Program-made: the position numbers and the translations under genes | DNA from: Thiobacillus sp. | Lineage (GTDB): Bacteria > Pseudomonadota > Gammaproteobacteria > Burkholderiales > Thiobacillaceae | Direction: 5' to 3' | DNA: 64,000 bases | Assembly (NCBI RefSeq): GCF_030696885.1 | Contig: NZ_JAUYRI010000031.1 | Coordinates: 1 to 64,000, forward strand | In this document: positions 24,410-54,691 of the stretch, one piece after another | Layout of the letters: each line of letters starts with the position of its first letter | Position numbering within the stretch: the stretch's first letter is position 1 | The notes under the pieces: generated by a model | The model's input: the letters and a program-made list of their open reading frames with translations, nothing else | Told to the model about the DNA's origin: nothing | Database searches by the model: none

Positions 24410-24425
24410 TGTGTGCCAGCGCACA
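24410..24425. promoter_or_regulatory. Crp-like palindrome TGTGT-GCCAGC-GCACA, site A
   Basis: This 16-mer has the half-site and spacing geometry of a Crp-family operator. It lies in the gap between regulator 2 and the hybrid kinase, 125 and 148 bases from the two start codons. Near-identical sites are at 37563, 41410, 44470 and 54676. Confidence 0.5.
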
Positions 24426-24572
24426 GATTGCCGGGCGCAATAACGCGATGATCCGGACTCCAGCCGGGCACGCGCCGCGCCAGCCCCTGTACGGCCATGC
24501 CATCCGGCCTTGCCGGCATCCGCAGACCCGGCCTTGCTCCGCACCGCCGCACGCTTTTCACGGAACGCCGCC

Positions 24573-26273
24573 ATGTCCGAAACAGTCAACGCCTCCTTTC
24601 TTGCCGACGCCGCCGGCCCGGCGGCCGGCGGCGTCGAAACGCAGCGTCAGCAAGCCCTGCTCAAAACGGGCACCTTGCAGAACGCGATCCTGACCAGCGC
24701 CAATTTCGCCATCATCGCCACCGACGACCAGGGCATCATCCAGCTGTTCAATATCGGCGCCGAGCGCCTGCTCGGCTACCACGCCGCCGAAGTCGTAAAC
24801 CAGCGCAGCCCGAGCGAGATGCACGATCCGCAGGACGTGATGGCGCGCGCGCAGGCGCTGAGCAGCGAACTCGCCACGCCGATTGCGCCCGGCTTCGAGG
24901 CCCTGGCCTTCAAGGCTTCACGCGGGATCGAGGACGTTTACGAGACGACCATCATCCGCCGGGACGGCAGCCGCTTTGCCGCCAAGGTATCGATCACGGC
25001 CTTGCGCGACGCCGCAGGCGAACTCATCGGCTATTTGCTGATCTGCGCCGACAACTCCGTGCGCAAGCAGGTCGAGGCCAAGCTGAACGAGGCGCTGGCC
25101 GCGGCGGAAACCGCCAACCGCGCCAAAACCGATTTTCTTTCCGGCATGAGCCATGAGCTGCGCACGCCGCTCAATGCGATTCTCGGCTTTGCCCAGCTGA
25201 TGGAATCCGGCTCGCCGCAGCCGACGCTCGCCCAGCAGCGCAGCCTCGATCAGGTGCTGAAGGCGGGCTGGTATCTGCTGGAACTGATCAACGAGATTCT
25301 CGACCTCGCGCTGATCGAATCGGGCAAGGTGACGCTGTCGCAGGAACCCGTTTCGCTGGCCGAGGTGATGCTCGAATGCCGGGCCATGATCGAGCCCCAG
25401 GCCCAGAAGCGCGGCATCGGCATGCGGTTCCCGCGCTTCGACACGCCCTGCTTCGTCAAGGCGGACCGCACCCGGATCAAGCAGGTGCTGATCAACCTGC
25501 TGTTCAATGCCATCAAATACAACACGCCCGGCGGCAGCGTGGTCGTCGAGCTGCTGCCGGCGCCGCCGGACGCGTTGCGCATCAGCGTGCGCGACACCGG
25601 CGCCGGGCTCGCGCCCGAGCAGCTTGCCCAACTGTTCCAGCCGTTCAACCGGCTCGGCAAGGAAGCCGGCGCTGAGGAAGGCACCGGCATCGGCCTGGTG
25701 GTGACCAAGCGGCTGGTCGAGCTGATGGGCGGCGTCCTCGGTGTCGACAGCAGCGTCGGCATCGGCAGCGTGTTCTGGGTGGAACTGGGGCTGAGCGCGG
25801 CCCCGGATCGGGCGGTGCTCGCTGCCACCGACCCTGCCCTGAAGCAGCCGCGTCTGCCGGACGGCACGCCGCTGCGCACGATTCTCTATGTCGAGGACAA
25901 CCCGGCCAACCTCGATCTGGTCGAACAGATCATTGCGCGCCGAGCCGACCTGCGGCTGCTCTCGGCGGCAGACGGCCAGCTCGGCATCGAGTTTGCGCGC
26001 GCCTACCAGCCGGAAGTGATCCTGATGGACATCAACCTGCTCGGCATCAGCGGCCTCGAAGCGATGCACGTGCTGCGCAACGATCCTCTGACCGCGCATA
26101 TCCCGATCATTGCGATCAGCGCCAATGCGCTCGCCAGCGACATCGAGCATGCCCTCGCCGCGGGCTTCTTCAATTACCTGACCAAGCCGATCAAGGTCAA
26201 CGCCTTCCTCGAGGCACTGGACGTGGCACTGCGCTACGCGCAAACCCAGGCGGCTGAAAAGGGGCAGACATGA
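24573..26273 (+). CDS. Hybrid sensor histidine kinase (PAS-HisKA-HATPase-REC)
   Basis: The 566-residue cytoplasmic kinase has no membrane helix. A PAS domain spans about residues 35-160 (FAIIATDDQGIIQLFNIGAERLLGY). The HisKA motif SHELRTPLNAILGF has its phospho-His near residue 194, then the N-box (LLFNAIKYN), the G boxes (RDTGAGL and GTGIGLVVTKRL), and a C-terminal receiver (ILYVEDNPANL; phospho-Asp in VILMDINLLG near 485) with Lys in FNYLTKPIK. The start at 24573 is the first ATG that does not extend into the upstream gap. It overlaps the following response regulator gene by four bases. Confidence 0.93.
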   Translation: MSETVNASFLADAAGPAAGGVETQRQQALLKTGTLQNAILTSANFAIIATDDQGIIQLFNIGAERLLGYHAAEVVNQRSPSEMHDPQDVMARAQALSSELATPIAPGFEALAFKASRGIEDVYETTIIRRDGSRFAAKVSITALRDAAGELIGYLLICADNSVRKQVEAKLNEALAAAETANRAKTDFLSGMSHELRTPLNAILGFAQLMESGSPQPTLAQQRSLDQVLKAGWYLLELINEILDLALIESGKVTLSQEPVSLAEVMLECRAMIEPQAQKRGIGMRFPRFDTPCFVKADRTRIKQVLINLLFNAIKYNTPGGSVVVELLPAPPDALRISVRDTGAGLAPEQLAQLFQPFNRLGKEAGAEEGTGIGLVVTKRLVELMGGVLGVDSSVGIGSVFWVELGLSAAPDRAVLAATDPALKQPRLPDGTPLRTILYVEDNPANLDLVEQIIARRADLRLLSAADGQLGIEFARAYQPEVILMDINLLGISGLEAMHVLRNDPLTAHIPIIAISANALASDIEHALAAGFFNYLTKPIKVNAFLEALDVALRYAQTQAAEKGQT

Positions 26274-27094
26274 GAATCAGCGAACCGGACCTCCTCAATG
26301 CCCGCATCCTGATCGTCGACGACCAGGAATCCAACGTCATGCTGCTCGCGCAAATGCTGAGCGCGGCGGGCTACACCCAGGTGAGCTCGACCATGGATCC
26401 GCACGAGGTATTCGCGCTGCACCGCAGGGATCCCTACGACCTCATCCTGCTCGACCTGCAGATGCCCGGCCTGGATGGTTTCCAGGTGATGGAGGGGCTC
26501 AAGACCAACGATGCGGAAAGCTATCTGCCGGTGCTCGTGATCACGGCGCAGCCAGGACACAAGCTGCGCGCGCTGCAGGCCGGCGCCAAGGACTTCATCA
26601 GCAAGCCGTTCGATCTGGTCGAAGCCAAGGTGCGCATCCACAACATGCTGGAGGTGCGATTGCTGTACAAAAAACTCGACGACTACAACCAGGTGCTGGA
26701 GCAGACGGTGCTGGAGCGCACCGCCGAGTTGCGCGAAAGTGAAGCCCGCTACCGCAGCCTGACAGAACTGGCCTCGGACTGGTACTGGGAACAGGACGAG
26801 AACATGAATTTCACCAAGGTCTCGGGGCCGGTGCTGGAAATGCTCGGCATCCGGGTGGGCACGCTCGGCGAGAATAACGGCGGCGACCAGGTTGCAGGCT
26901 GGGATCCGCAAGAGCGGGCCGTGCTGCAGGCCACCATTGCCGCGCGCCAGCCCTTCCTCGATTTCGTATACAGCCGCGTCAATGCCGATGGCTCGCACCA
27001 GCGCTTCAGGGTCAGCGGCGAACCCATGTTCACCCAGGCCTGCCGCTTCATCGGCTACCGTGGCATCGGCGTTGAAATCATCACCCGCAAATAA
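26270..27094 (+). CDS. Response regulator with PAS domain
   Basis: The 274-residue protein has an N-terminal receiver (ILIVDDQESNVMLL; phospho-Asp in LILLDLQMPG near residue 61; Lys in DFISKPFD), a coiled-coil linker (about residues 130-160, LDDYNQVLEQTVLERTAELRESEARYRSL), and a PAS domain (ELASDWYWEQDENMNFTKVSGPVLEMLG to the end). No DNA-binding or enzymatic output is present, so it may relay the signal to another protein. It starts inside the kinase stop codon and ends 22 bases before Crp regulator 3. Confidence 0.9.
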   Translation: MRISEPDLLNARILIVDDQESNVMLLAQMLSAAGYTQVSSTMDPHEVFALHRRDPYDLILLDLQMPGLDGFQVMEGLKTNDAESYLPVLVITAQPGHKLRALQAGAKDFISKPFDLVEAKVRIHNMLEVRLLYKKLDDYNQVLEQTVLERTAELRESEARYRSLTELASDWYWEQDENMNFTKVSGPVLEMLGIRVGTLGENNGGDQVAGWDPQERAVLQATIAARQPFLDFVYSRVNADGSHQRFRVSGEPMFTQACRFIGYRGIGVEIITRK

Positions 27095-27116
27095 CCCCCG
27101 CTTTATCCCGCACCCC

Positions 27117-27869
27117 ATGACGACATCGCACCCTAGCCAGAACCACCTGCTTGCTGCCCTGCCTGCTGAGGAATTCGAGCCCCTGCTTGCCCACCTGGAA
27201 CGGGTCGAGCTCGCGCTCGGCGACATGCTCTACGAACCCGGCAGCCAGCTGCGGTACGCCTACTTTCCGACCAGCGCCATCGTCTCGCTGCACTACGTCA
27301 TGGCATCCGGCGCCTCGTCCGAGTCGGCCGGCGTGGGCAACGAAGGCGTCGTCGGCGTCTCGCTGTTCATGGGCGGCGACACCACGTCCAGCTCGGCCGT
27401 GGTGCAGACCGCCGGCGTGGCCTACCGGATGCCGGCCGCCACGCTGCTGCAGGAATTCAACCGCGCCGGCCTGTTCCAGCGCCTGCTGCTGCGCTACACC
27501 CAGGCACTGATGACGCAGATGGCGCAGACCACGGTCTGCACGCGCCACCACTCGGTGGAACAGCAGTTGTGCCGCTGGCTGCTGCTGACGCTGGACCGCC
27601 TGCCGTCGAACCAGTTGGTCATGACGCAGGAGTTGATCGCCAACATGCTCGGCGTGCGCCGCGAAGGCATCACCGAAGCGGCCGGCAGGCTGCAGGATGC
27701 GGGCGTGATCAGCTACCGCCGCGGCCACATCGCGGTGCTCGATCGCAAGGGACTCGAAACCCGCGTCTGCGAGTGCTACGGCGTGGTGAAGGCGGAACTC
27801 GATCGCCTGCTGTGCGACGTGCGTTACCGGCAGGACAGCGACACCCCGACACACGCCGTGTCGGAATGA
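27117..27869 (+). CDS. Crp/Fnr family transcriptional regulator 3
   Basis: This 250-residue protein is closely similar to regulator 2 along its length: AYFPTSAIVSLHYVMASGASSESAGVGNEGVVGVSLFMGG, the MTQELIANMLGVRREGITEAAG helix-turn-helix, and an RVCECYGVV end. It differs from regulator 2 in an approximately 20-residue C-terminal extension. Placed last in the kinase/regulator operon, it is the likely DNA-binding output of that system, although no phospho-acceptor is visible in it. ATG 27117 is chosen, since the longer frame from 26892 overlaps the response regulator. Confidence 0.92.
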   Translation: MTTSHPSQNHLLAALPAEEFEPLLAHLERVELALGDMLYEPGSQLRYAYFPTSAIVSLHYVMASGASSESAGVGNEGVVGVSLFMGGDTTSSSAVVQTAGVAYRMPAATLLQEFNRAGLFQRLLLRYTQALMTQMAQTTVCTRHHSVEQQLCRWLLLTLDRLPSNQLVMTQELIANMLGVRREGITEAAGRLQDAGVISYRRGHIAVLDRKGLETRVCECYGVVKAELDRLLCDVRYRQDSDTPTHAVSE

Positions 27870-28090
27870 CGGCATGACGCGCGGGGCGCGCGTGCGACCT
27901 ATGTTCGATAGCAGACAGACGGCGACGCGCGCATTCCCTATCCTTGTCGCATCTTAACCAGCACGCGTGCACTCCCTGCACCGTGGCCATGCGCACGGCC
28001 CCCGGCGGTGCGCGCCTGGTGAAGACAGGTGCCTGCCCGGCGGGATCGAGGTTCCGCCCCACCCAGGTTCACCTCATCCAAGGAACGCTC

Positions 28091-28306
28091 ATGAAAACCC
28101 TACAGAAATTTGCAATCGGTACTGCGGCCGCCTCCCTGATGCTGGGCCTGGGCGGTTGCGCCGGCATGTCGTCGCAAGACAAGAGCACGGCCGTCGGTGC
28201 CGGTGTCGGTGCCGTCGGCGGCGCCGTCCTCACTGGCGGCAGCGCAATCGGCACCGTGGGCGGCGCAGCCGTCGGCGGCGTCATCGGCCACGAAGTCGGC
28301 AAGTGA
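28091..28306 (+). CDS. OsmB-like glycine-zipper lipoprotein
   Basis: The 71-residue protein begins MKTLQKFAIGTAAASLMLGLGGCAG, a signal peptide with a lipobox (LGGC; Cys 22 would be lipidated). The mature part is a glycine-zipper membrane-inserting segment (GAGVGAVGGAVLTGGSAIGTVGGAAVGGVIGHEVGK). This is the OsmB/YcfJ-type envelope stress protein pattern. AAGGA lies before the ATG. A poor match to the 16-bp palindrome (TGTTC-GATAGC-AGACA, 27902) is upstream. Confidence 0.85.
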   Translation: MKTLQKFAIGTAAASLMLGLGGCAGMSSQDKSTAVGAGVGAVGGAVLTGGSAIGTVGGAAVGGVIGHEVGK

Positions 28307-28314
28307 TGCAGGCC

Positions 28315-28333
28315 GTCCCGGTACGCGCCGGGA
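28315..28333 (+). terminator. Hairpin after the OsmB-like gene
   Basis: GTCCCGG...CCGGGAC is a 7-bp GC-rich stem directly after the stop. It has no long T tract, so termination may be partial. Confidence 0.4.
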
Positions 28334-28501
28334 CGCCTGCACAGACAGGCAGGCGTCGCACGCATCTGGATTGCCGGTGCCAGTATCCGTTCGCAATCCG
28401 TTCTATGCTGATAAGCGCAGCCCGATCAAGGCGAGCCGCCGGCCCGGCGCGCGTCCCGGACGCGTGCCGCATGCACTTTTAATCAACTGGAGAAAACAAA
28501 A

Positions 28502-28717: not shown

Positions 28718-28730
28718 GCTGCGAATGCTC

Positions 28731-37562: not shown

Positions 37563-37578
37563 TGTGCGTGAACGCACA
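37563..37578. promoter_or_regulatory. Crp-like palindrome TGTGC-GTGAAC-GCACA, site B
   Basis: This is the best copy, a perfect 7-bp inverted repeat around GA with the 16-bp Crp-type layout. It lies 169 bases upstream of the ATG of the KaiC-like operon, in the gap after the glucan synthase gene. Confidence 0.55.
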
Positions 37579-37746
37579 GACCCTATGAGGCTGGCGAGGG
37601 ACAATTAATCAGATCTAAATGTCCGGCTTACTCGTCGGCGGCAAAGGGATGTACAGTGGGTGCCGGAAAACGTTTCTCCGCCTATCCAGGCGACCCACGG
37701 TGCAGAGACGAGGTCATCATGTCAGTCGGTTATTTATATTTTTCTT

Positions 37747-38166
37747 ATGATGGAAACCCCTGACCCGCAGCGGCACCAGATCATTGACCGCCTCATGGCG
37801 CAGCACCCCGAGGGGGCGGATACCGTGAGTGTGCTGTGGGAGAAGCTGGCGACCGAGGTCAGTTCGATCGTCGGTGCAGGCGGATTCGATTCACTCTACG
37901 AACGAAGCGTATTTCTCACCCAGTCAACCTTTCCCTGGCTTGCGGCCGGCGCGTCGTCAGCGCAGGCTGATCACCGGTTCACGTCATTGAAAACCAGTCT
38001 GGCGGCCCAGACGCCGACGCACGCCAGCGAAGCCAATCGCCTGCTGCTGGTCACTTTCACCGACATCATGGCCTCGCTGATTGGCGAGGCGCTGACGACC
38101 GGAATTTTACGTTCGGCCTGGGGCGATGCCGCAGCGGACAAGAACGGCGAGGAGCTGAAAAAATGA
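37747..38166 (+). CDS. Small helical partner encoded with a KaiC-like ATPase
   Basis: The 139-residue soluble protein is started at the MM pair at 37747 (a longer frame from 37660 has no support). It is mostly alpha-helical: HQIIDRLMAQHP, VSVLWEKLATEVSSIVG, FDSLYERSVFLTQSTFPWLA and RLLLVTFTDIMASLIGEALTTGILRSAWG. I do not know a named family, but it opens the operon and its stop overlaps the ATPase start by four bases (ATGA), so a direct partner role is the simplest reading. A Crp-like palindrome lies upstream. Confidence 0.75.
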   Translation: MMETPDPQRHQIIDRLMAQHPEGADTVSVLWEKLATEVSSIVGAGGFDSLYERSVFLTQSTFPWLAAGASSAQADHRFTSLKTSLAAQTPTHASEANRLLLVTFTDIMASLIGEALTTGILRSAWGDAAADKNGEELKK

Positions 38167-39617
38167 GTAGCAAGGTCACGATACGTCGCCTGCCTTCGGG
38201 AGTGCCCGGCCTGGACAACCTGCTGGGCGGCGGTCTGCCGGAGTTCTCGTTCAACCTGATTGCGGGCACGCCGGGAAGCGGGAAAACGACGCTCGCGCAC
38301 CAGATGATGTTCTCGCTGGCCACCCCGGAATACCGGGCGCTGTTCTTCACCGTGCTCGGCGAGCCCACCCTGAAAATGCTGCGCTACCAGCAGCAATTTG
38401 CGTTTTTCGATCACGACAAGATCAATCAGTCGATTCGCTTCGTCAACCTGGCGACCGAGCTGCTGGAGGGCGATTTCGACCGCGTCCTGGCGCGCATCGC
38501 CGCCGAGGTGAAAGACTTTGAACCCAGACTGGTGTTCGTCGACTCGTTTCGATCCGTCGTGCAGTCGGGCCGTCCCCAAGACGGGAATGTGTTCGATCTG
38601 CAGCACTTTGTGCAGCAGCTCGGCATGCAGATGACCAGCTGGCAGGCCACCACCTTCCTGATCGGTGAATACCTGGCGCCCGAATCCGAATCGAGTCCGG
38701 TCTTCACCGTGGCGGACGGCATCCTGTGGCTGTCGCAAAACCTGCATCGCAATTCCATGGTGCGCAAGATGCAGGTGGTCAAGATGCGTGGCCAGGCCCA
38801 GGCGCCCGGTTTGCATACCTTCCGTATCAGTGAGGCCGGCGTCCAGGTTTTTCCACGGGCGATCGTCCAGCCGCACGAGGCAGTCGGACCGGCTCCCGCG
38901 GGCGGCACGGAACGGGTTTCCATGGGGGTCGCGGGCCTGGACGAGATGCTGGGGGGCGGTTTGCCGGCCGGTTATTCGCTGCTCGCAGTCGGCCCCTCGG
39001 GTTCCGGGAAAACCATCCTGTCGACGGCATTTCTCGCCGAAGGGGCACGCTGCGGCGAGACTGGCGTGATCGCGGCGTTCGAAAAAAGTCCGAGCCAGCT
39101 GCTGAACAACAAGTTACATGCGCTGGTGAGTGCCGGGCAGGTGGGGGTGATCGACACGCGTTCGCTGGATTTGTCGATCGATGAAACCCTGCATGACCTG
39201 ATCGAGATGATCCATAGGATGCAGGCCAAGCGCGTCGTCATCGATTCGCTGTCGGGTTTCGAGCTGGCACTGGCGCCCGAGTTCAGCGAGGATTTTCGCG
39301 GTTCGCTGTACCGGATGGTGGCCGAACTGACCAGCATGGGCGTGACCATCCTGATGACCTCGGAACTGGAAGACCGCTACACCGATTTGCGTTTCAGTCC
39401 GTTTGGCAGCGCGTTTCTCGCCGATGCCATCCTGGTGCAGCGCTATGTCGAACTCGCGGGCCAGCTCAGGCGCGTCTTCTCGGTCGTCAAGGTGCGCGGC
39501 AGCGACCACAGCAAAGACATCCGGCTGTTCGACATCAACGACGAGGGCATCGTGATTGGCGAGTCCTTGTCCGAATACGACGGCATCATGACCGGTCATC
39601 CCAGGATCGGTTCCTAG
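38163..39617 (+). CDS. KaiC-like tandem RecA ATPase
   Basis: The 484-residue protein has two KaiC-type domains. The first has SGVPGLDNLLGGGLP and Walker A GTPGSGKTT near residue 36; the second has GVAGLDEMLGGGLP and GPSGSGKTI near residue 276. Walker B-like strands (RLVFVDSF and RVVIDSLSGFE) follow. The second domain has FEKS where circadian KaiC has a catalytic Glu pair, so one catalytic Glu is missing there. There is no KaiA or KaiB nearby. The gene overlaps its neighbours, with a GGDEF-EAL protein 28 bases downstream, suggesting signalling by ATPase cycling rather than a full clock. Confidence 0.88.
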   Translation: MSSKVTIRRLPSGVPGLDNLLGGGLPEFSFNLIAGTPGSGKTTLAHQMMFSLATPEYRALFFTVLGEPTLKMLRYQQQFAFFDHDKINQSIRFVNLATELLEGDFDRVLARIAAEVKDFEPRLVFVDSFRSVVQSGRPQDGNVFDLQHFVQQLGMQMTSWQATTFLIGEYLAPESESSPVFTVADGILWLSQNLHRNSMVRKMQVVKMRGQAQAPGLHTFRISEAGVQVFPRAIVQPHEAVGPAPAGGTERVSMGVAGLDEMLGGGLPAGYSLLAVGPSGSGKTILSTAFLAEGARCGETGVIAAFEKSPSQLLNNKLHALVSAGQVGVIDTRSLDLSIDETLHDLIEMIHRMQAKRVVIDSLSGFELALAPEFSEDFRGSLYRMVAELTSMGVTILMTSELEDRYTDLRFSPFGSAFLADAILVQRYVELAGQLRRVFSVVKVRGSDHSKDIRLFDINDEGIVIGESLSEYDGIMTGHPRIGS

Positions 39618-39645
39618 CGTGGACAGCCGCGTAAGGGAGGGGGCA

Positions 39646-41388
39646 ATGAACAGCCAGGACAAGGACGGCGCGTCTGATACAGGTGAATCCGACACCCCCG
39701 GTCAAACGGACACGCGCAGGGATCAAACCCGCCTCGCCGCCGAGGACGCTGTTCTAAGTCGGGAGAAATCGGCGGACTTGCGTGAAGATGCCGCCAACTT
39801 GCGTGAAGATGCCGCGGATGTGCGTGAAGATGCCGCCAACCTGCGTGAAGACGCGGTCCATCTGCGCGAGGACGCGGCACATGCACGCGAAGCATCCGCC
39901 ACATCGCGCGAGCAGGACCTTGGCTCGGGCGACGCGCAGACCGCGTCCGATGATCACATTTCCAAGCTGCGGCAGGCGAACGAACACCTGGTCATCGCGA
40001 CCATCGAAGCGAGCGTGATGGCCGAGGAAATCCAGGCCGCCAAAGATACGCTCGAGCATCTGGTCCATTACGACACGCTCACCGGCCTGCCGAACCGGGC
40101 ACTGCTGCAGGACCGGCTGGGTCAGGCCATCGAGCTGGCCCGCCGCCAGGACAGGCAGCTGGCAGTGATGTTCATCGACCTGGATCAGTTCAAGCCCATC
40201 AACGATTCCCTCGGACATCTGGTGGGCGACCAGCTGCTGCAATCGGTGGCCCAGCGCCTGGTGGGAAGTGTGCGCCACTCCGATACCGTCAGCCGGCAGG
40301 GCGGCGACGAATTCGTCCTGCTGCTGCCCTATATCGAACACGCTGCAGACGCGGCGCTGTCGGCGCAAAAAGTGCTCGCGGCACTGGCGCCGCCTCACCA
40401 TCTCGCCGAACACGAGCTGCATATCGGCGCGAGTATCGGCATCAGCATCTACCCCGACGACGGCCGGGATGCGGAAACCCTGATCAAGTGCGCAGACACC
40501 GCGATGTACGATGCCAAGGCCGGTGGGAGCAACAGTTACAAATTCTTCGAGCCGCGCATGAATGCCCAGGCAATCGAGCGGCAATCCATTGAAGCCAGTC
40601 TGCGCCTCGCGCTGGAACGGCAGGAATTCGTGCTGCACTACCAGCCGAAAATCGATCTTCAGCGCGGCACGACAACGGGCGTCGAGGCGCTGATCCGCTG
40701 GCAGCATCCGCAACGCGGGCTGCTGGCGTCCGCGCAGTTCGTGCCGACAGCCGAAGCGTGCGGCCTGATCCTGCCGATCGGCCGCTGGGTGCTGCGCGAA
40801 GCCTGCAGGCAGGCCCAGGCCTGGCTGCAGGCTGGCTTGCCGCCTGTCACGCTCTCCATCAATGTCTCCACGGCCGAGTTCCTTGCGGCGGATTATCTCG
40901 ATAACGTACGCGCGGCCCTCGAGGAAGCGCATCTGGAACCGCGCACACTGGAACTCGATCTGACCGAGGGCGTTCTGATGCGCGACGTCGCGTCCACCGA
41001 ACCCGTACTGCATGCGCTCGCCGACCTGGGCGTCAAGCTCGCGGTCGACGACTTCGGCATCGGCTATTCCAGCCTGCGTTCTCTAAGGACGTATCGGATC
41101 GATACCCTGAAGATCGACCCCTCGTTCGTCAGCAGGATGATTGGCAATGCGGACGATGCCGCCATCGTCTGCGCAGCGATCAGCCTCGCCCGGTCCCTCG
41201 GGCTGCGCGTCAGCGCGGAGGGCGTGGAGACCGTCGAGCAGGCTCGGTTTCTTCGCGACCGGCAGTGCGACGAGGCCCAGGGCGATTACTTCGCCCGTCC
41301 GCTGGCGGCCGACGCACTCGCCGCCCTGCTGCAGACCGGTACCGTCCACGCATTTCAGCCCACCGCCGGGGATAGGCCACCGCAGTGA
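39646..41388 (+). CDS. GGDEF-EAL cyclic-di-GMP enzyme with heptad-repeat N-terminus
   Basis: The 580-residue cytoplasmic protein starts MNSQDKDG at 39646, with GGGAGGGGG upstream. Residues ~45-90 are near-perfect 7-residue repeats (LREDAAN-like) predicted to be a coiled coil. A GGDEF domain follows, with intact GGDEF near residue 218 and an RxxD inhibitory site five residues before it (RHSD). The EAL domain has EALIRW near 346 and DDFGIGYSSL, so both cyclase and phosphodiesterase sites look intact. It is the last gene of the KaiC-like operon and is the likely output of that ATPase. Confidence 0.92.
   Translation: MNSQDKDGASDTGESDTPGQTDTRRDQTRLAAEDAVLSREKSADLREDAANLREDAADVREDAANLREDAVHLREDAAHAREASATSREQDLGSGDAQTASDDHISKLRQANEHLVIATIEASVMAEEIQAAKDTLEHLVHYDTLTGLPNRALLQDRLGQAIELARRQDRQLAVMFIDLDQFKPINDSLGHLVGDQLLQSVAQRLVGSVRHSDTVSRQGGDEFVLLLPYIEHAADAALSAQKVLAALAPPHHLAEHELHIGASIGISIYPDDGRDAETLIKCADTAMYDAKAGGSNSYKFFEPRMNAQAIERQSIEASLRLALERQEFVLHYQPKIDLQRGTTTGVEALIRWQHPQRGLLASAQFVPTAEACGLILPIGRWVLREACRQAQAWLQAGLPPVTLSINVSTAEFLAADYLDNVRAALEEAHLEPRTLELDLTEGVLMRDVASTEPVLHALADLGVKLAVDDFGIGYSSLRSLRTYRIDTLKIDPSFVSRMIGNADDAAIVCAAISLARSLGLRVSAEGVETVEQARFLRDRQCDEAQGDYFARPLAADALAALLQTGTVHAFQPTAGDRPPQ
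39778..39903 (+). repeat. In-frame 21-bp tandem repeats
   Basis: About six 21-bp units (TTGCGTGAAGATGCCGCCAAC type) each encode LREDAAN or a close variant. The first three units are almost identical in DNA and later units diverge, as expected for copy-number change by slippage. They lie within the coiled-coil N-terminus of the GGDEF-EAL gene. Confidence 0.85.
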
Positions 41389-41409: not shown

Positions 41410-41425
41410 TGTGTCGCAGCGCACA
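41410..41425. promoter_or_regulatory. Crp-like palindrome TGTGT-CGCAGC-GCACA, site C
   Basis: The site lies 96 bases upstream of the YXWGXW-type gene and 22 bases past the GGDEF-EAL stop. It shares TGTGT and GCACA with site A exactly, differing in three of the six spacer bases. Confidence 0.5.
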
Positions 41426-41520
41426 GATCGACCGGCACGGCAGCGCTAGGATGAATGGTCAGGCAATGGGGTCGCATTCTGCGCGACGCCGGTTGCCGCC
41501 CTCAAACTGGAGGTCACACC

Positions 41521-42366
41521 ATGCCGAACATTCGCACCCTCATCCTTGTGCTGGGGCTGTCGCTGTCCCCGCTGGCGACTGCCGCGGTCCAGGTCAGCAT
41601 CAGCATCGGCGTGCCGGCCTACCCGCGGCTCGTCGTCGTCCCCGGCTATCCGGTCTACTACGCGCCGCAAGTGCAGGCGAACTACTTCTTCTATGACGGC
41701 ATGTACTGGGTGTATCAGGCGGACAACTGGTACGCGAGTTCCTGGTACAACGGTCCCTGGTGGTATGTGGAGCCCTATGCCGTGCCGGTGTATATCCTGC
41801 GCGTTCCGGTACGCTACTACCGCCAGCCGCCGGCCTACTTTCGCGGCTGGCGTCCGGATGCGCCGCCGCGCTGGAGCAATCACTGGGGCCGTGAGTGGCA
41901 ACAGAAGCGAAGCGGCTGGGACACCTGGGACCGCCGCGCCGCCCCACCGCCGGCGCCGCTGCCCGCTTACCAAAGGCTGTATTCGGGCGACCGCTACCCG
42001 CGCCAGATCGAGCAGCAGTACCTCATTCAGCAACAGCGCTACCCCTACCAGCCGCGCGATCCCGTGGTGCAGCAGCGCTACCAGCAGCGCGAACAGGTCC
42101 GGCCGTCACAACGCGTCCCCACCCAGCAGAACAGGCAGGACGCCACCAACGGTACGCGCACGCAAACCCAGCAACGCGACAACGTTCAACGGCCCGCCGC
42201 ATCCGTGCGACCCGATAACGGCGTGAACCCGCGCGATACCCGGCAGGGCCCCCAGCCCTGGCTGGACCCGCGCGAGCCCCAGGCACGGGATGGCCGAACG
42301 CAGGACAGGACCGCGCCGCCACCGCACAGCCGCGACCCGGCCCAGCGGAACGACGGGGAACGTTGA
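41521..42366 (+). CDS. Exported YXWGXW-type protein, 281 aa
   Basis: The protein has a signal peptide (MPNIRTLILVLGLSLSPLATAA), then a Tyr/Trp-rich segment with YYAPQVQANYFFYDGMYWVYQADNWYASSWYNGPWWYVEP-like blocks (shown here in parts: YFFYDGMYWVYQ, NWYASSWYNGPWW) that resemble YXWGXW outer-membrane-associated domains. The C-terminal half is a low-complexity Gln/Arg/Pro tail (QQRYPYQPRDPVVQQ and similar) likely to be disordered or wall-associated. The function is unknown; envelope stress is a guess from neighbours. A Crp-like site is 96 bases upstream. Confidence 0.8.
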   Translation: MPNIRTLILVLGLSLSPLATAAVQVSISIGVPAYPRLVVVPGYPVYYAPQVQANYFFYDGMYWVYQADNWYASSWYNGPWWYVEPYAVPVYILRVPVRYYRQPPAYFRGWRPDAPPRWSNHWGREWQQKRSGWDTWDRRAAPPPAPLPAYQRLYSGDRYPRQIEQQYLIQQQRYPYQPRDPVVQQRYQQREQVRPSQRVPTQQNRQDATNGTRTQTQQRDNVQRPAASVRPDNGVNPRDTRQGPQPWLDPREPQARDGRTQDRTAPPPHSRDPAQRNDGER

Positions 42367-42467
42367 CGCAACGCGTCGCCTTCCTGCTCGCCCACGGCGT
42401 GGTGACGTGAACGCCGGATAGCCGAACAAGGCGGCCGATACGCTTGAACGCCTTCGGAGGGCCGCTC

Positions 42468-43988
42468 ATGAACGTACTCATCATTCTCGGACATCCGCGC
42501 ACCGACAGCCTGTGCGGGGCACTGGCGGACGCCTACGGCGCGGGAGCGCGGGCGGCAGGCACCGACGTTCGCCGCCTCGATCTGGCGACGCTCGATTTCG
42601 ATCCCGACGTCCACACCCCGTCGCCCAATCAGCAGGATTTTGAAGCGGACATCCGCGCCGCCCGCGAACTGATCCTGTGGGCCGAGCATCTGGTGTTCGT
42701 CTACCCGACCTGGTGGGGCACCCTGCCCGCGCTGCTGAAGGGCTTTCTCGACCGTGTGCTGACGCCCCATTTCGCGTTCATTACCTGCGAGGGCGGCACT
42801 GGCTACCAGGGTCTGCTCGGCGGCCGATCCGCACAACTGATCACCACCATGGACACGCCGCCGCTGATCCACCGCCTGGTCTACCGGCAACCCGGCCGCA
42901 ATGCGATGGCGCGGGCAACACTAGGCTTCTGCGGCGTCCGGCCCGTGCGTTCGCTGGTCTGCGGTTCGGTCAAGGACTCCACCCTGCAGCAACGGCAGCA
43001 ATGGATCGAGCAGGCCCGCCGTCAGGGACGCGCGCTCGAACAGGGCCGCATCACGCGGTGGGAACAGCTTCGACACAAGGCCGCCGCCTGGCTCAAGGCC
43101 ATGCGGCTGCAGTTTTATCCCATGACCTGGCTGGCCTACACCGTGGGCGCGCTGGCCGCGTTTCCCGCGGACGGCGTGTTCGGCAATCCGCTGTTCTGGA
43201 TCGGCTACCTCTGCCTGTTTCTGGGGGAGGTGGCCACCGTGCTGATCAACGAAGTGGTGGATTTTCCGAGCGACCGCAACAACCGCTTCTTCAGTCCTTT
43301 CACCGGCGGCTCGCGCGTGCTGGTGGAAGGCCTGCTCAGTCGGCACGAACTGCAGATCGGCATCGCCGTGACGCTGGCAGGCGCCGTCGCCAGCGCGGCA
43401 TGGCTGCTGACCCTGACGCCGGCCGGCACGTCCGCGGTGCTGTCGGTGCTGGGCGTGATGGCGATCCTGGCCCTGGGCTACACCGCGCCGCCGCTGAAAC
43501 TGTGCTATCGAGGCCTGGGGGAGCTGGACGTGGCGCTCACCCACAGCATCGTCGTCATCCTGTGCGGCTACGTGTTTCTGGGTGGCGCCTGGAATGACCC
43601 GCTTCCGTGGCTGCTGGGCCTGCCGCTGCTGCTGGCGATCGTGCCGTCGATCACCCTGTCTGGCATCCCGGATCTGGAAGCCGACGCAGCCGTCGGCAAA
43701 CGCACCCTGGCGGTGCGCCTGGGGCAACGCGGCGCGCTGTGGCTTTGCCTGGTGTTTACCGTGCTGGCAGCCGGGGCCACGCTGATGGCGCAGGTGCTGA
43801 ACATGGCGGGGGGCGCGTTCGCGGGCATCGCCTACGTGGTCATACCCCACGCGATCTGGCTGGCGTGGCTGTTGCGCAAGCGCATGGAATCAGGCAAACC
43901 GCCGGGCCGCATCGACGGATTGATGGCGGCCTCGCTGACATACGTCCTGTGGTTCGGGCTGTTTCCGCTGCTCAGGCTGGCCGGGTAA
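42468..43988 (+). CDS. Fusion of NAD(P)H-quinone-reductase-like flavodoxin fold and UbiA prenyltransferase
   Basis: The 506-residue protein starts at 42468, supported by GGAGG seven bases upstream. Residues ~1-200 look like an NQO1/MdaB-type flavodoxin fold (MNVLIILGHPRTDSL, LVFVYPTWWGTLPALLKGFLDRV, GLLGGRSAQLITTMDTP). Residues ~220-506 are a polytopic UbiA-family prenyltransferase with its first Asp-rich motif NEVVDFPSDRNNRF and second DLEADAAVGKRTLAVRLG. A quinone reductase joined to a prenyltransferase on one chain is unusual and suggests direct handling of a prenylated quinone or similar aromatic. I see no frameshift at the junction, near residues 203-222. It lies 101 bases after the YXWGXW gene. 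Confidence 0.85.
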   Translation: MNVLIILGHPRTDSLCGALADAYGAGARAAGTDVRRLDLATLDFDPDVHTPSPNQQDFEADIRAARELILWAEHLVFVYPTWWGTLPALLKGFLDRVLTPHFAFITCEGGTGYQGLLGGRSAQLITTMDTPPLIHRLVYRQPGRNAMARATLGFCGVRPVRSLVCGSVKDSTLQQRQQWIEQARRQGRALEQGRITRWEQLRHKAAAWLKAMRLQFYPMTWLAYTVGALAAFPADGVFGNPLFWIGYLCLFLGEVATVLINEVVDFPSDRNNRFFSPFTGGSRVLVEGLLSRHELQIGIAVTLAGAVASAAWLLTLTPAGTSAVLSVLGVMAILALGYTAPPLKLCYRGLGELDVALTHSIVVILCGYVFLGGAWNDPLPWLLGLPLLLAIVPSITLSGIPDLEADAAVGKRTLAVRLGQRGALWLCLVFTVLAAGATLMAQVLNMAGGAFAGIAYVVIPHAIWLAWLLRKRMESGKPPGRIDGLMAASLTYVLWFGLFPLLRLAG

Positions 43989-44064: not shown

Positions 44065-44139
44065 TTAGCGCAATCCAAAGAACGACAGGATTGCGATGAT
44101 GATGACGATGGCGCCGACGATGTAGACGATGTTGTTCAT
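44065..44139 (-). CDS. 24-aa single-helix membrane peptide
   Basis: ATG 44139 to TAA 44065-44067 encodes a peptide starting MNNIVYIVGAIVIII and ending SFFGLR. AGGGG lies about 7 bases upstream. Nearly the whole peptide is one transmembrane helix. Short peptides with this VYIVG...FFGLR pattern recur in betaproteobacteria, in my recollection. The gene is too short for automatic callers but has every sign of a translated small protein. Confidence 0.55.
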   Translation of the reverse strand: MNNIVYIVGAIVIIIAILSFFGLR

Positions 44140-44469
44140 GAGATGCCCCTTATGTGAGATAAAAATCCGTGCGTTTAAAAACGGACCCGAACGGGATGTG
44201 CGCTTCTCTGCCCACCCCCTAACAGTACCCTGTGCCATCCAGCGCCGCTGTAAGCGCCCATAACGTCAATGTGTCCGACTACCGCTTGCCGGGTTGACGG
44301 ATCACTCCGCATCCCCTTGTGCTGCCTGCCTTCCGGCGGCGAGCGGCAGCCCCGGACCCGGGGCGCGGCGTCGGCGTGAAGCCGTTCAAATACCGTGAAT
44401 CATCGTCGCGCGATTCGACGACATTGCCGTATCCTTGCCTGCATTATTCCGCAGCAAACGGCAGACTTC
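44140..44469. other. Non-coding gap upstream of the SRPBCC gene
   Basis: I see no supported gene between the 24-aa peptide and the palindrome at 44470. A frame from 44395 joins the SRPBCC frame, but it has no ribosome site and its first half is not conserved-looking. A half-site-like TGTGC-CATCCA-GCGCC lies at about 44232. Confidence 0.4.
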
Positions 44470-44485
44470 TGTACGGCAGCGCACA
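44470..44485. promoter_or_regulatory. Crp-like palindrome TGTAC-GGCAGC-GCACA, site D
   Basis: One base off the TGTGC half-site. It lies 92 bases upstream of the GTG start of the SRPBCC gene. Confidence 0.42.
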
Positions 44486-47312: not shown

Positions 47313-47447
47313 CAGACGCGGTGATGCCGTCACGTACGCTGGCGTACAGAACTTGCCGCGAAATCGGGCTATCAATAGATCTGTGGCGAGCGCCGCGCAG
47401 TGCGCGTTGTGCCTGACGCCACGCCCCACCACTCCAAGGAGCACATC

Positions 47448-48102: not shown

Positions 48103-48152
48103 GCAGCGCGCGCGTTCTGGTGAAGGCATATCCATACGAAAGGCACGTCCAG

Positions 48153-50929: not shown

Positions 50930-51051
50930 GATGCAGCCTGCCCGCAAGCAACCCGGCCAGGCCGGGCACCGCCACCCGCTCAAGCGCGGTCCCGGCTCTC
51001 AGTGGAGCCGGCGCACTTGAACAGCGGAGACTGCCCATCCAGGCACCGCTA

Positions 51052-51333: not shown

Positions 51334-51579
51334 GGTCAATCTCCTTGAGTTGGGTTTCGTCGCACATGCCAGGTGGCACGGACAGTGACAAGACTAGACT
51401 TCTGGTTCAAAAGCGCTGTAGGACTTGCTCAAGACTTGTGTAGGAGATATCCGAATATTTTTGTGGACCCCCTTTGCGGACCAAGCCGGCGCAGCCGTAT
51501 GGGTTCGGCACCGCACAGACTCCGTCCCGGCGAGCGTTTAGGCTTGAGCTCCGATCAGATTGGATTCAGGACGCTTGAA

Positions 51580-51951
51580 ATGAACGCGAACATCGACGAA
51601 GACCGCAACCCGGCCGAAGGCGTCGCGGCTTCGCGCAGAACACTGCTGCGCGGCGTGCTGCTGGCGGGCTGTAGCCTGTTGCTGCCGGCTGCATTGATGG
51701 GATGCGATTCGCAGGCTGGCATCGACGCAGCCGATGCCGGCGGCGGCTCAGGCCCTGCTGCCGCAGACGCCGAGGCGACGCGGCTGTCCGCAAAAGTGTC
51801 GCAGGAAAGCGTGACGCACCAGCGGCAGCCGAAAGGTGAGCAGCAATGCGACGGCTGCCTGCATTTTCTCGCTGCATCGAATACCTGCCAGGTGGTGGAA
51901 GGTGCGATCAGTGCCGACAACTGGTCCAGCATGTGGACCCCGCGGGTCTGA
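51580..51951 (+). CDS. HiPIP-like Tat-exported protein with the fourth Cys replaced by Ser
   Basis: The 123-residue protein starts MNANIDEDRNPAEG at 51580. A Tat-type signal is present (SRRTLLRGVLLAG). The C-terminal part has the high-potential iron-sulfur protein layout: Cys90, Cys93 (QQCDGCLHF), Cys103 (NTCQVVEGAI), and then NWSSMW, where family members have a Cys in the GWC/NWC position. Residue 116 is encoded by TCC (51925-51927), one base from TGC. A HiPIP holds a [4Fe-4S] cluster by four cysteines and shuttles electrons to cytochromes. Here the cluster would need Ser ligation or would be incomplete. There is no cytochrome gene beside it. Confidence 0.85.
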   Translation: MNANIDEDRNPAEGVAASRRTLLRGVLLAGCSLLLPAALMGCDSQAGIDAADAGGGSGPAAADAEATRLSAKVSQESVTHQRQPKGEQQCDGCLHFLAASNTCQVVEGAISADNWSSMWTPRV

Positions 51952-51961
51952 CACCTGCGTG

Positions 51962-51988
51962 CGCCCGGGGAACCCTGCCGGGGCGCGC
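51962..51988 (+). terminator. GC-rich hairpin after the HiPIP gene
   Basis: GCGCCCCGG-like arms (GCGCCCGGGG...CCGGGGCGCG) form a stem about 10 bases past the stop. There is no T tract. Confidence 0.4.
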
Positions 51989-52129
51989 CCTTGTCTCCCG
52001 CCTTGCAGACTGTAGCGACGGGAAAGCCAGCCTGGACAACCTGGCACGTGCTTTCCATGAACCCGTCTGGCCGTCTCCAGCTGCTTTCCGCTGCAGCCAG
52101 AGCGGCATCGATCATGAAAGGAGATTGAG

Positions 52130-52186
52130 ATGGACCGAATACCCGTTTTGAACTGTTCAGCCCCAACAGGGGTCGAGTCCTCATGA
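52130..52186 (+). CDS. 18-codon leader ORF coupled to the zinc-ribbon gene
   Basis: An AAAGGAG Shine-Dalgarno (52117-52123) sits seven bases before ATG 52130. The frame reads MDRIPVLNCSAPTGVESS and stops at TGA 52184-52186, which overlaps the ATG of the next gene (ATGA). The next gene has no good ribosome site, so translation is probably coupled through this leader. I do not know a protein role for the peptide itself. Confidence 0.45.
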   Translation: MDRIPVLNCSAPTGVESS

Positions 52187-52419
52187 ATTCCGCCCCCCAC
52201 AACGGCAGCAACCGTCCCCCGGTTGTGAGCTATACCAGCCCCGGCTGCATCTGCCCCCGCTGCAAGGGCACCGCCGTCCGCATTCCGCGGCGGCTGGCCG
52301 ACTTGCTGCTGAGCATGTTCGTCACAGTCGGGCGCTTTCGCTGCATCGCCGAAGACTGTGGCTGGGAAGGCCGGATGCGGGTGAAACGGCATCCCCTGCT
52401 GGTGCAGGGGCCATGGTGA
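52183..52419 (+). CDS. Small CxxC zinc-ribbon-like protein
   Basis: The 78-residue protein has CICPRC (positions ~22-27) and FRCIAEDCGWEG, a CxxC...CxxxxC pair typical of zinc ribbons. The C-terminus is basic (RMRVKRHPLL). It has no good ribosome site of its own and overlaps a leader ORF upstream and the exported-protein gene downstream (seven bases), so the three are probably translated together. The function is unknown. Confidence 0.65.
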   Translation: MNSAPHNGSNRPPVVSYTSPGCICPRCKGTAVRIPRRLADLLLSMFVTVGRFRCIAEDCGWEGRMRVKRHPLLVQGPW

Positions 52420-53333
52420 ACACCGCGATCGGTAACACGATCCTCACTCGGCTGCTGCGCACGCTGTGGCTGGCCGCCACGATGCTGATCGGCGCGGAAA
52501 CGGCGCTGGCCGCCGGACCGGATGCATCTGCCGCCGCCGCACTGCACGCCCACTATGCCGCGCTCGGCGAGCGCCTCCACAACAATCCGTTCCGGCGTGC
52601 GCTGACCCTCGATTCGTCGGAATCGGACAATGAGGTGAAGGGCGACATTCACGCCCGCATCGACTACCCGTTTTTCACAGTCCAGGCGGCGCTCAACGAT
52701 CCGGCGCACTGGTGCGACGTGCTGATCCTGCACATCAACACCAAGCATTGCCGCGCCACCACCGATGCCGACGGCACCGTGCTCGCCGTCAGCATCGGCA
52801 AGAAGACGCCGCAGCCGATCAAGGACGCCTATCCCATTGAGTTTTCCTATCGCGTCGTAACCGCCACGTCGAATTATCTGGAGCTCCGGCTGCATGCGCC
52901 GCAGGGGCCGCTCAGCACCCACGACTACCACATCCAGTTGCAGGCGGTGCCGGTTGAAAACGGACGCACTTTTCTGCGCCTCACCTATTCATATGATTAC
53001 GGCACCGCGGGACGCATCGCGATGAAGACCTATCTCGCCACGCTGGGCAGCGGCAAGGTGGGATTCACCCGTACCGGCCGGCAGCCCGGCGGTGCGCCCG
53101 AGCATATCGGCGGCATGCGTGGCGCGATCGAACGCAATGCCATGCGCTACTACCTGGCGATCGATGCCTATCTCGCAACCTATGGAACGCCCTCGGCCCA
53201 GCAGCTGCAGCAACGCCTGCACACCTGGTTTTCCGCCACCGAGCAATACCCCCGCCAGTTGCGCGAACTCGATCGAACCGCCTATATCGACATGAAACGC
53301 AGCGAGTATCAGCGTCAGCAGGCGGTGCAATAG
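52413..53333 (+). CDS. Exported hypothetical protein, 306 aa
   Basis: The protein starts with a long, charged N-region and a signal peptide (LLRTLWLAATMLIGAETALAAG, cleaved near residue 34). The mature part is soluble with a helical start (LHAHYAALGERLHNNPFRRALTLDSSES), a beta-rich middle (WCDVLILHINTKHCRATTDADG) and C-terminal helices. Two cysteines (W-C-D and K-H-C) may form a disulfide. I do not recognise the family. It overlaps the zinc-ribbon gene by seven bases. Confidence 0.75.
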   Translation: MVNTAIGNTILTRLLRTLWLAATMLIGAETALAAGPDASAAAALHAHYAALGERLHNNPFRRALTLDSSESDNEVKGDIHARIDYPFFTVQAALNDPAHWCDVLILHINTKHCRATTDADGTVLAVSIGKKTPQPIKDAYPIEFSYRVVTATSNYLELRLHAPQGPLSTHDYHIQLQAVPVENGRTFLRLTYSYDYGTAGRIAMKTYLATLGSGKVGFTRTGRQPGGAPEHIGGMRGAIERNAMRYYLAIDAYLATYGTPSAQQLQQRLHTWFSATEQYPRQLRELDRTAYIDMKRSEYQRQQAVQ

Positions 53334-53466
53334 CGCTGCCGCACCGAGCGACCACTCGCTCAGCGCGTCTTGGGATAAATGGGATCAATGCAGGCGGCAA
53401 GGCCTGCCGCTTAATTTGCCGTGCTGACTAACGCCCCTGACCGGCGGGCGCCCTTAATCCCACCTG

Positions 53467-53739
53467 TCAGCGCAGCCTGCGCCCGATCTGCCACGCCAGC
53501 CAGCCGCGTCGCAGCCATTTGCCCGCGCCCCGGGGACGCACCGCCGCAAACAGCAGCGCGACGCCCAGGATCAGGAACGGACGGCGTCTGAGATACCGGA
53601 TCGCGGCCACGCCCTGGTCGACCAGCGCCAGCCGCGCACGCCAGGGCACCATGTCCTGCACCAGCGCGGCTCGCTGGAAAGCGGCCTGCGCCACAAGTTG
53701 GCGGCGACGGTCGGCCAGTTGGGCGAGTTTTCCGTTCAT
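53467..53739 (-). CDS. YqjK-like protein
   Basis: The 90-residue protein has a charged helical N-terminus (LAQLADRRRQLVAQAAFQRAAL), a basic stretch and one hydrophobic helix (FLILGVALLFAAV). The size, composition and position directly after a YqjE-type gene match YqjK, the third protein of the yqjDEK stress operon. Its ATG overlaps the upstream stop by four bases. Confidence 0.75.
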   Translation of the reverse strand: MNGKLAQLADRRRQLVAQAAFQRAALVQDMVPWRARLALVDQGVAAIRYLRRRPFLILGVALLFAAVRPRGAGKWLRRGWLAWQIGRRLR

Positions 53740-54128
53740 GGCTCGGCGTTGAGGTGCTGGCGGTCTTTGGACAACTCGGCGAGGCTCGCCTCAAACAGCC
53801 GCGGCCGGGTGCGGGCCTTGTGCAGGGCGAACGCCACCAGACCTGCGCCGGCTGCCAGAAAAAACCCAGTCAGCCCGCCCAGCGCCGCGAGCCGATGCGT
53901 GTCCCAAAAGATCACGACAATCAGCATCGCCAGCAGCACCACGCCCACGCCAAAACAGAACAGGGCGAGCAGGCCCAGCACCAGCAGTCGGGTCAGATGC
54001 AGCCGTTCTTCGGCGATATCGGTGGACAGCAGCTCAAGGCGGGTTTGAACAAGGCTAACCAGACTCCCCGACAGCGTTTTCAGGGAGTCGAACAGGCCGC
54101 CCGCTGCCGCGTGCGATTCGTCTGCCAT
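53736..54128 (-). CDS. Phage-holin-like YqjE/DUF1469 family membrane protein
   Basis: The 130-residue protein has an N-terminal amphipathic region (GGLFDSLKTLSGSLVSLVQTRLELLSTDIAEE), then two transmembrane helices (LLVLGLLALFCFGVGVVLLAMLIVVIFW and GGLTGFFLAAGAGLVAFAL) and a charged tail. This is the YqjE pattern (DUF1469). It is seven bases downstream of the YqjD-like gene and coupled to the YqjK-like gene. Confidence 0.9.
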   Translation of the reverse strand: MADESHAAAGGLFDSLKTLSGSLVSLVQTRLELLSTDIAEERLHLTRLLVLGLLALFCFGVGVVLLAMLIVVIFWDTHRLAALGGLTGFFLAAGAGLVAFALHKARTRPRLFEASLAELSKDRQHLNAEP

Positions 54129-54135
54129 CTTCGGC

Positions 54136-54471
54136 CTAGCGACGTCCGATCAGCACACCGATGATCAGGCCAATGCTGGCCGCAGCGCCGACAGCCTGCC
54201 ACGGATGCACGTGCACATATTCGTCGGTTGCCTTGGCAGCAGCCTTGGTCTTGGCCAGCATCGCGGCCTGGGCTTCGCTCATGCGCACTTTGGCGGTGGC
54301 AAGGGACGCTTCGGCCTTGGCACGCGCTGCAGCCAGCGCCTCGCCACCCTGGCCTGCCGTCGCCCTCAGCAGGGCTTCCGCATCGGAAACCACCACCTTG
54401 AAATCATTGATCAGCTGTTCTTTCGTCACATTGACGGATTCTGCATGGGCAGACGTGTTATTCGCATTCAT
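54136..54471 (-). CDS. YqjD/ElaB/DUF883 family ribosome-associated membrane protein
   Basis: The 111-residue protein starts at ATG 54471 (MNANNTSAHAESVNVTKEQLINDF). It is a long charged helix (residues ~20-85) ending in EYVHVHPWQAVGAAASIGLIIGVLIGRR, where the DUF883 C-terminal helix anchors to the membrane. E. coli YqjD binds ribosomes in stationary phase. It is the first gene of the minus-strand yqjDEK-type operon. A palindrome related to the Crp-like sites lies about 205 bases upstream. Confidence 0.9.
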   Translation of the reverse strand: MNANNTSAHAESVNVTKEQLINDFKVVVSDAEALLRATAGQGGEALAAARAKAEASLATAKVRMSEAQAAMLAKTKAAAKATDEYVHVHPWQAVGAAASIGLIIGVLIGRR

Positions 54472-54675
54472 GGAAAGTATTCCTCTTGGTGTATCAAGTT
54501 CAAAAAAGCCCACGCCCGATTGCTCGCGTGAACCGGCTCAAGGCATCCTGATTATTCACTTCATGGCAGAACACTCGCACTACAACCTTAGACTTTCCTA
54601 AGGCCCTTGCAAAGGATCGCCGCATGACTGCGTCTGTTCAGGCTGGCCAGACTAGGGCGGAATGCGCAGCCGGTC

Positions 54676-54691
54676 GGTGCGCCAGCGCACA
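54676..54691. promoter_or_regulatory. Crp-like palindrome GGTGC-GCCAGC-GCACA, site E
   Basis: The spacer GCCAGC is identical to site A at 24410, and the right half is exact; the left half differs at one base. It lies between the yqjD operon and tRNA-Arg. Confidence 0.42.

Follow-up and report, generated by a model that had tools for sequence, protein, structure and literature searches.

The 64,000-nucleotide window analysed here (positions 1 to 64,000 of contig NZ_JAUYRI010000031.1, RefSeq assembly GCF_030696885.1, from Thiobacillus sp.) contains an accessory island with three genes for Crp/Fnr-type regulators, termed crp1, crp2 and crp3, and nine intergenic palindromes of 16 bp. These palindromes are very probably the operators of the Crp/Fnr subfamily represented by crp2 and crp3, through which a stress-like regulon would be activated from class II promoters. 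A first-pass annotation of the same DNA had proposed a shared Crp-family operator and a regulon. The repeated palindrome is confirmed as real, and comparison across genomes supports the proposed interpretation, with a corrected motif and a wider set of putative targets.

The palindrome and its consensus

Five copies of TGTGY-N6-GCACA had been described, and all are present with exactly the coordinates and letters claimed (24410, 37563, 41410, 44470 and 54676). As a motif, this pattern is too loose and partly wrong, and we rejected it: allowing one mismatch, it has 16 hits over the two strands of the window, where shuffled sequences average 11.3 and 21 of 100 of them reach 16 or more (not significant), whereas the weight matrices described below pick out nine sites. 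The palindromic site itself stands, with its letters amended to TnTGTnCG-nYRn-CGnACAnA. In the half-sites of the non-Thiobacillus matrix, C occupies position 5 in 87% and G occupies position 6 in 95%, while position 4 is variable, with G in about half. The exact pattern TGTGY-N6-GCACA occurs at six places in the whole 3.0 Mb genome, three of them within 17 kb of island DNA (binomial P ∼2e-5), and an extended form of the motif, with up to two mismatches allowed, has nine matches genome-wide, of which four, including the best two, are in the island. A de novo dyad count over the intergenic DNA of the island (24,671 spaced trinucleotide pairs) ranks TCT-N12-ACA first, which is the present motif, with 9 occurrences against 1.1 expected (P 10^-5.6; ∼0.07 after Bonferroni correction). 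In the islands of relatives, ATC-N3-ATC is followed closely by GTA-N9-ACA and TGT-N10-ACA in second and third place (∼10^-10). Clusters of such sites also occur within the genus, in relatives whose islands have the same genes; contig 10 of G002, for instance, has 12 intergenic sites in 60 kb. The LexA site (CTGT-N8-ACAG) was considered as the identity of the motif and rejected, as the spacing here is N10.

The first matrix, of 24 columns, was built from 38 intergenic sites from relatives and includes no window sequence; pattern matches inside predicted genes were excluded from this training set, so the intergenic placement of those 38 sites is by choice. Over the 64 kb it finds nine sites above 12 bits, whereas 30 random dinucleotide-matched sequences average 0.4 sites and have at most 3, and the next-best window score is 9.8 bits. 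A second matrix, for which 263 sites from loci not assigned to Thiobacillus were used, recovers the same nine at 17.4–24.7 bits, followed by 9.9. The accessory-region, intergenic placement claimed previously holds for all nine, which lie within 23.5–54.7 kb of an island whose intergenic share is 15.9% of bases. Among the weaker copies proposed earlier, 23504 and 27902 are supported by the matrices; the copy at 51351 is supported by neither and was discarded, the site there being at 51502. The site at 47333, absent from the earlier list, was found by the matrices.

The search was extended to 80 named loci around crp2 homologues, which are the best 80 of more than 585 (best segment 68–86% identical) and include Aromatoleum, Accumulibacter, Thiocapsa, Halomonas, Methylomonas, Variovorax, Steroidobacter and Pseudomonas alcaligenes. 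These loci yield 278 sites that score above 12 bits, whereas the backward matrix yields 3, and 77 of the 80 have at least one site; comparison DNA of 64.6 kb, in 20 stretches fetched for another reason, contains 2. The gene calling used with the 278-versus-3 count under-predicted genes (38% intergenic), and better training was used for the coding count that follows. Across 86 stretches (the 80 named loci, five relatives' islands and the window), only 3 of 331 sites are coding although coding sequence makes up 80% of bases, so the motif is not equally common inside genes; 12 of the 331 lie between convergent genes. The 331 include the 38 training sites, at least one site is counted twice (L178 seemingly duplicates G005 C37, with the same site), and some pairs of named loci are closely related and share matching sites (L226/L249, L233/L251).

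That the palindromes are chance matches, or dispersed repeats without function, would be in keeping with the lack of over-representation of TGTGY-N6-GCACA under shuffling and with the borderline corrected value of the de novo dyad, when the window is taken alone. The chance reading is already refuted by the controls, namely the backward matrix, the intergenic placement, and the fixed promoter distance and regulator co-occurrence presented below, and the flanks differ among the printed sites, so the palindromes are not copies of one longer repeat. We consider the probability of this explanation to be practically negligible.

The regulators and their co-occurrence with the sites

The named loci were chosen by crp2 and are therefore no proof of co-occurrence, so whole genomes were used instead, with the strict pattern TNTGTRCGNYRNCGYACANA and one mismatch allowed. 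Genomes were called positive (Crp+) for a crp2-type protein at E≤1e-20 within the genus and at E≤1e-75 in the order, where 149 other genomes, each at least 90% complete, were sampled; G050 is Crp+ through a 62-residue fragment at a contig end. Among the 56 genomes of the genus, sites occur in all 28 Crp+ genomes (186 in total; backward control 6) and in 5 of the 28 Crp- genomes (15 in total; backward control 10). In the order, two or more sites are present in 27 of 39 Crp+ genomes versus 5 of 110 Crp- genomes (Fisher's test, about 1e-15), and one or more sites in 33 of 39 versus 25 of 110. Two to five copies of this Crp/Fnr type are carried by 16 of 40 genomes of the order.

The gene crp2 (23551–24336, minus strand) encodes a Crp/Fnr regulator with the recognition helix VRRESVTE and belongs to the subfamily that is tracked by the operator. 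Its paralogue crp3 (27117–27869, plus strand) has the helix VRREGITE and is 67% identical to it, and crp1 (22708–23418, minus strand) is 38% identical, with VRRVGVTK. The earlier description of three Crp/Fnr paralogues with RRE-type helices thus applies to crp2 and crp3 but not to crp1. Cyclic nucleotide-binding-type and HTH_Crp domains score above the Pfam cut-off in crp2 and crp3, while the former domain is below cut-off in crp1. An AlphaFold2 model of crp2 has a mean pLDDT (predicted local distance difference test score) of 84.2, and its best 50 PDB matches, at 15–20% identity, are Crp/Fnr-family proteins (CRP, GlxR, NtcA, FNR, Clp, Clr and others). By domain content and predicted fold, crp2 is a member of the Crp/Fnr family. 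In an alignment of 36 proteins (33 from the 80 loci, together with the three from the window), VRRE is present in 35, with crp1 the sole exception. Three cysteines, C164, C241 and C243 in crp2 numbering, are invariant in all 36, crp1 included; speculatively, they could serve in redox or metal sensing. The cyclic AMP (cAMP) phosphate-binding cassette of CRP proper follows the pattern GE...R[ST], and its glutamate is unmatched in the alignment of crp2 with GlxR. The genome also has a fourth regulator of the crp2 kind (G000 C24:70361–71053, 58% identical to crp2), around which no site above 11 bits was found within the 14 kb examined.

The operator might instead belong to crp1, or to all three paralogues, with crp2 and crp3 competing or modulating. 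The gene crp1 adjoins crp2 and has an upstream site with a class II -10 box, and in the genus it is seen only alongside crp2-type genes, so that full separation of the two is impossible. However, crp1-type matches (40–46% to crp2) are listed for no more than 10 of the 28 Crp+ genomes in the genus, a number that incomplete assemblies may have lowered, whereas sites are present in all 28, and the crp1 helix lacks the conserved glutamate. We therefore favor crp2 and crp3 as the cognate regulators and judge assignment to crp1 improbable.

The operator is not that of CRP, FNR or NtcA. CRP binds TGTGA-N6-TCACA. The present site resembles it in being a 16-bp two-fold symmetric TGT...ACA element with class II placement at -41.5, presumably read by a protein of the same fold, but it has C rather than A at position 5 (87%), G at position 6 (95%) and a variable position 4, so that the half-site composition does not match the CRP operator. 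The cyanobacterial NtcA recognizes GTA-N8-TAC. This geometry is the same, a minority of the present sites read GTAC...GTAC, and there are weak NCBIfam and PDB matches to NtcA; in contrast, the A of GTA is found in only 25% of half-sites, the inner CG..CG is nearly invariant, and the NtcA family score is 23.6 against a cut-off of 245. Sites of FNR, Anr and DNR, which share the Crp/Fnr superfamily and class II activation, follow TTGAT-N4-ATCAA and differ in letters and length. The N-terminal cysteines for an iron-sulphur cluster are absent from crp2, whose first cysteine is residue 164, so neither the protein nor the motif is of the FNR kind. From these sequence comparisons, the sites represent a predicted new operator specificity in a widespread Crp/Fnr subfamily of Beta- and Gammaproteobacteria, with a class II promoter architecture.

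A further related case is the low-oxygen-activated (lxa) locus of Burkholderia cenocepacia, an island of stress genes, among them BON and universal stress proteins, that is likewise linked to a Crp/Fnr regulator (PMC6127331, PMC9104464). The passages retrieved from these papers propose an Anr-like regulator, BCAM0049 (43% identical to P. aeruginosa Anr), and do not mention the present operator; since an Anr-type regulator is credited there, lxa was set aside as a known instance of this system. The matched passages of PMC4603805, PMC9104464, PMC3759415, PMC11742914, PMC6127331, PMC8510549 and PMC6446978 concern Anr/FNR-type or other regulators. No description of the operator or the subfamily is found among the matches listed in the open-licence PMC literature.

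There are also 368 plasmid records with matches to crp2 homologues, of which 163 are typed as conjugative; P. aeruginosa NC_019202 (71%) and Burkholderia replicons at 67–72% are among the matches. Spread of the regulator by mobile plasmids is possible. In the 30 plasmid rows listed, crp2-type genes have no annotation or merely "Crp/Fnr family transcriptional regulator".

Promoter geometry and the probable operators in the window

The sites lie at a fixed distance from promoter-like sequence. Among 152 one-directional sites, 36.8% have a hexamer of the form TAnnnT beginning 29 bases downstream of the dyad centre; over all offsets the mean is 0.8%. With a -10 box at this distance, the palindrome is centred on -41.5, where CRP and FNR sit as class II activators. 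In a more relaxed form (A at +30 and T at +34 from the centre, A+30/T+34), the box is found in 234 of 478 gene-facing directions, versus 21 of 169 non-facing directions and 909 of 20,704 control offsets (4.4%), and, counted by site, 224 of 316 show it towards at least one gene. Of the 13 facing directions in the window, 7 have the box (P about 4e-7), to the left of 23504 and 54676 and to the right of 24410, 27902, 37563, 41410 and 51502. The Crp-family layout suggested earlier for the 16-bp site is thus borne out by its two-fold symmetry and by the dyad centre at -41.5.

Four things are computed results: the motif itself, its intergenic location, the way it accompanies the regulator across genomes and the constant spacing to the -10 box. 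From these we infer binding by crp2 and crp3; an activating effect is suggested by the class II geometry. A homodimer with the helix VRRE[G/S]VTE would bind TnTGTnCG-nYRn-CGnACAnA and, with its dyad at -41.5 from the promoter start, would recruit RNA polymerase as a class II activator. It would thereby switch on its own neighborhood, comprising the kinase, KaiC/GGDEF-EAL, glycine-zipper, HiPIP-like and yqjDEK genes, together with several distant genes of the same genome.

Another island-borne regulator, such as the response regulator at 26270–27094, could instead bind the motif, making the co-occurrence with Crp indirect. The kinase and the response regulator share a cluster, and the kinase is itself a putative target. 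This response regulator, however, has a REC domain and weak PAS matches and no DNA-binding domain in Pfam, a receiver domain is found in only 2 of 125 target proteins scanned, and a 16-bp dyad at -41.5 is the established Crp/Fnr layout. This alternative is very unlikely, more so than assignment to crp1.

Several results weigh against operators of crp2 and crp3 with class II activation. Six Crp+ genomes of the order have no strict site, and sites are found without a close homologue in five genomes of the genus (1–4 strict sites) and five of the order (2–13). The five exceptional genus genomes are 70–91% complete and have no homologue at E≤1e-10. In the order, two of the exceptions are partly explained: G193, a genome scored as Crp-, encodes a 47% homologue whose helix reads VRRESIT, and five sites, each with A+30/T+34 in one direction, lie no more than about 9 kb away from it, while G200 retains a broken homologue copy. 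In G034 there is only a 39% fragment, and in G109 and G181 no homologue at E≤1e-10. A relaxed pattern, TGTNCG-N4-CGNACA, is also in excess over its backward control in many Crp- genomes (12 versus 2 in G041), so that specificity is confined to the full motif. In the Thiobacillus sp. genome, two matches above 18 bits fall inside genes (C31, C19). The operators at 44470 and 47333 have no class II -10 towards the nearest annotated gene, and an operator before KaiC is not seen in G018, G021, G012 and G029, the relatives with correct orientation in an alignment of mixed orientations. Finally, a site lies at most 350 bases upstream of crp in 55 of the 80 loci, and only 8 of these 55 have a -10 facing crp. 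Autoregulation may therefore be negative, by repression, or the site may serve the neighboring gene.

The first operator of the window (23504–23519; 12.4 bits with the relatives' matrix, 18.0 with the non-Thiobacillus matrix) is upstream of crp1 (22708–23418, minus strand) and has a -10-like CACACT at class II distance facing this gene (23477–23482, minus strand). A site in this position between crp1 and crp2 is also present in the relatives L117, L119 and L121. The second (24410–24425, 23.3 bits) lies between crp2 (minus strand) and the PAS hybrid kinase gene (plus strand), and a -10-like GATGAT (24447–24452, plus strand), which faces the kinase gene (start at 24510 or 24573), puts its dyad centre at -41.5; sites upstream of crp2 recur in relatives such as L117, L119, L121 and L144. 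The third (27902–27917, 21.5 bits), downstream of crp3 and upstream of a glycine-zipper gene (27989–28306), is at class II distance from TATCCT (27939–27944, plus strand). In 13 of 17 crp3-type loci of the genus, a site is found at most about 260 bases past the crp3-type gene.

The fourth operator (37563–37578, 23.1 bits) is upstream of the KaiC-like/GGDEF-EAL operon, with a -10-like GACAAT at class II distance (37600–37605, plus strand). The fifth (41410–41425; 14.2 bits, and 17.4 with the second matrix) precedes the gene of a secreted Tyr/Trp/Gln-rich protein, probably starting at 41521, and has TAGGAT at class II distance (41447–41452, plus strand). The sixth (44470–44485), which at 24.2 bits is the window's best with the relatives' matrix, is upstream of the SRPBCC gene; its class II -10, AATAAT (44443–44448, minus strand), faces left, towards a membrane open reading frame of 24 residues (44065–44139). 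The seventh (47333–47348, 18.8 bits), between dsrC-like (minus strand) and csbD (plus strand) genes, has no exact class II -10 (TATCAA on the right). The eighth (51502–51517, 17.7 bits) is upstream of a HiPIP/iron-oxidase-like gene (51580–51951), with TAGGCT at class II distance (51539–51544, plus strand), and the ninth (54676–54691, 20.8 bits) is upstream of yqjD-yqjE-yqjK (54513–53467, minus strand), which is faced by TAGTCT at class II distance (54649–54654, minus strand).

The putative regulon and neighboring genes

Within the window, the putative targets comprise the PAS hybrid histidine kinase and response regulator genes (24510–27094, plus strand), the KaiC-like ATPase and GGDEF-EAL operon (37660–41388, plus strand), and the genes of YqjK, holin-X (YqjE-like) and DUF883 (YqjD-like) proteins (53467–54513, minus strand). 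A local regulon had been proposed, and a shared Crp-type operator over the operons named in it is supported, but the regulon is not purely local. At least nine intergenic sites above 18 bits lie elsewhere in the genome, a lower bound obtained from fetched stretches. Each has A+30/T+34 in one direction, and seven of the nine face a predicted gene that way; the outside targets include BON, OmpA, rhodanese/metallo-hydrolase, DUF3309 and small unknown genes. A second operator cluster of the genome (G000 C17:262246–273373, L257) stands beside BON, DUF3309 and DUF4398 genes, the last just below cut-off. Matches on C31, C3, C18, C11 and C19, which lie within genes with no class II -10 facing a gene, were treated as chance; the one on C31 has A+30/T+34 in a direction that faces no gene.

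Pfam was scanned, for target genes only, in 125 of the 127 non-Crp proteins with a class II -10 in the named loci, leaving out L178:5144–5722 (duplicate contig) and L191:3–5750 (very long). The families found include CsbD (12 proteins), glycine zipper 2TM (12), PAS (8), BON (8), GGDEF (5), PRC-barrel (5), cyclopropane synthase (3), EAL (3), squalene-hopene cyclase (2) and OmpA (2). Since proteins of these types are typical of general-stress and envelope programmes, the predicted targets across Beta- and Gammaproteobacteria look like such a programme. More tentatively, and with somewhat less than an even chance in our estimate, this apparently undescribed Crp/Fnr subfamily may be a general-stress activator with its own operator code, acting beside or instead of RpoS in response to a signal other than cAMP, perhaps through C164, C241 and C243. 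It would then drive CsbD, BON, PRC-barrel, glycine-zipper, cyclopropane-synthase, hopanoid and cyclic di-GMP genes from class II promoters.

With the operator and its fixed promoter distance, the regulon can be read straight from sequence in these species. One predicted switch is tied to a set of poorly understood proteins (CsbD, BON, YqjD, PRC-barrel, DUF1328, DUF3309 and DUF4398), and the defined operator makes a promoter-reporter assay available for the hunt for the signal.

The unannotated membrane peptide of 24 residues encoded at 44065–44139 (minus strand), of the MNNIVYIVG type, also occurs in G043, G005 and L200. Five copies were found, two of which represent one and the same contig; a class II site faces the copies in the window and L200, but not those in G043 and G005. 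The gene at 51580–51951 (plus strand), under the operator at 51502, encodes a small protein that begins with a twin-arginine-like sequence and weakly matches the iron oxidase Iro (34.9 bits, cut-off 100). The KaiC-like gene (38163–39617, plus strand) is patchy in the genus, with full-length or cut copies of 82–92% identity in 8 of 24 other genomes sampled, which fits an accessory island. A single open reading frame at 42444–43988 (plus strand), to which no operator is assigned, fuses a flavodoxin/NAD(P)H dehydrogenase-like domain to a UbiA prenyltransferase.

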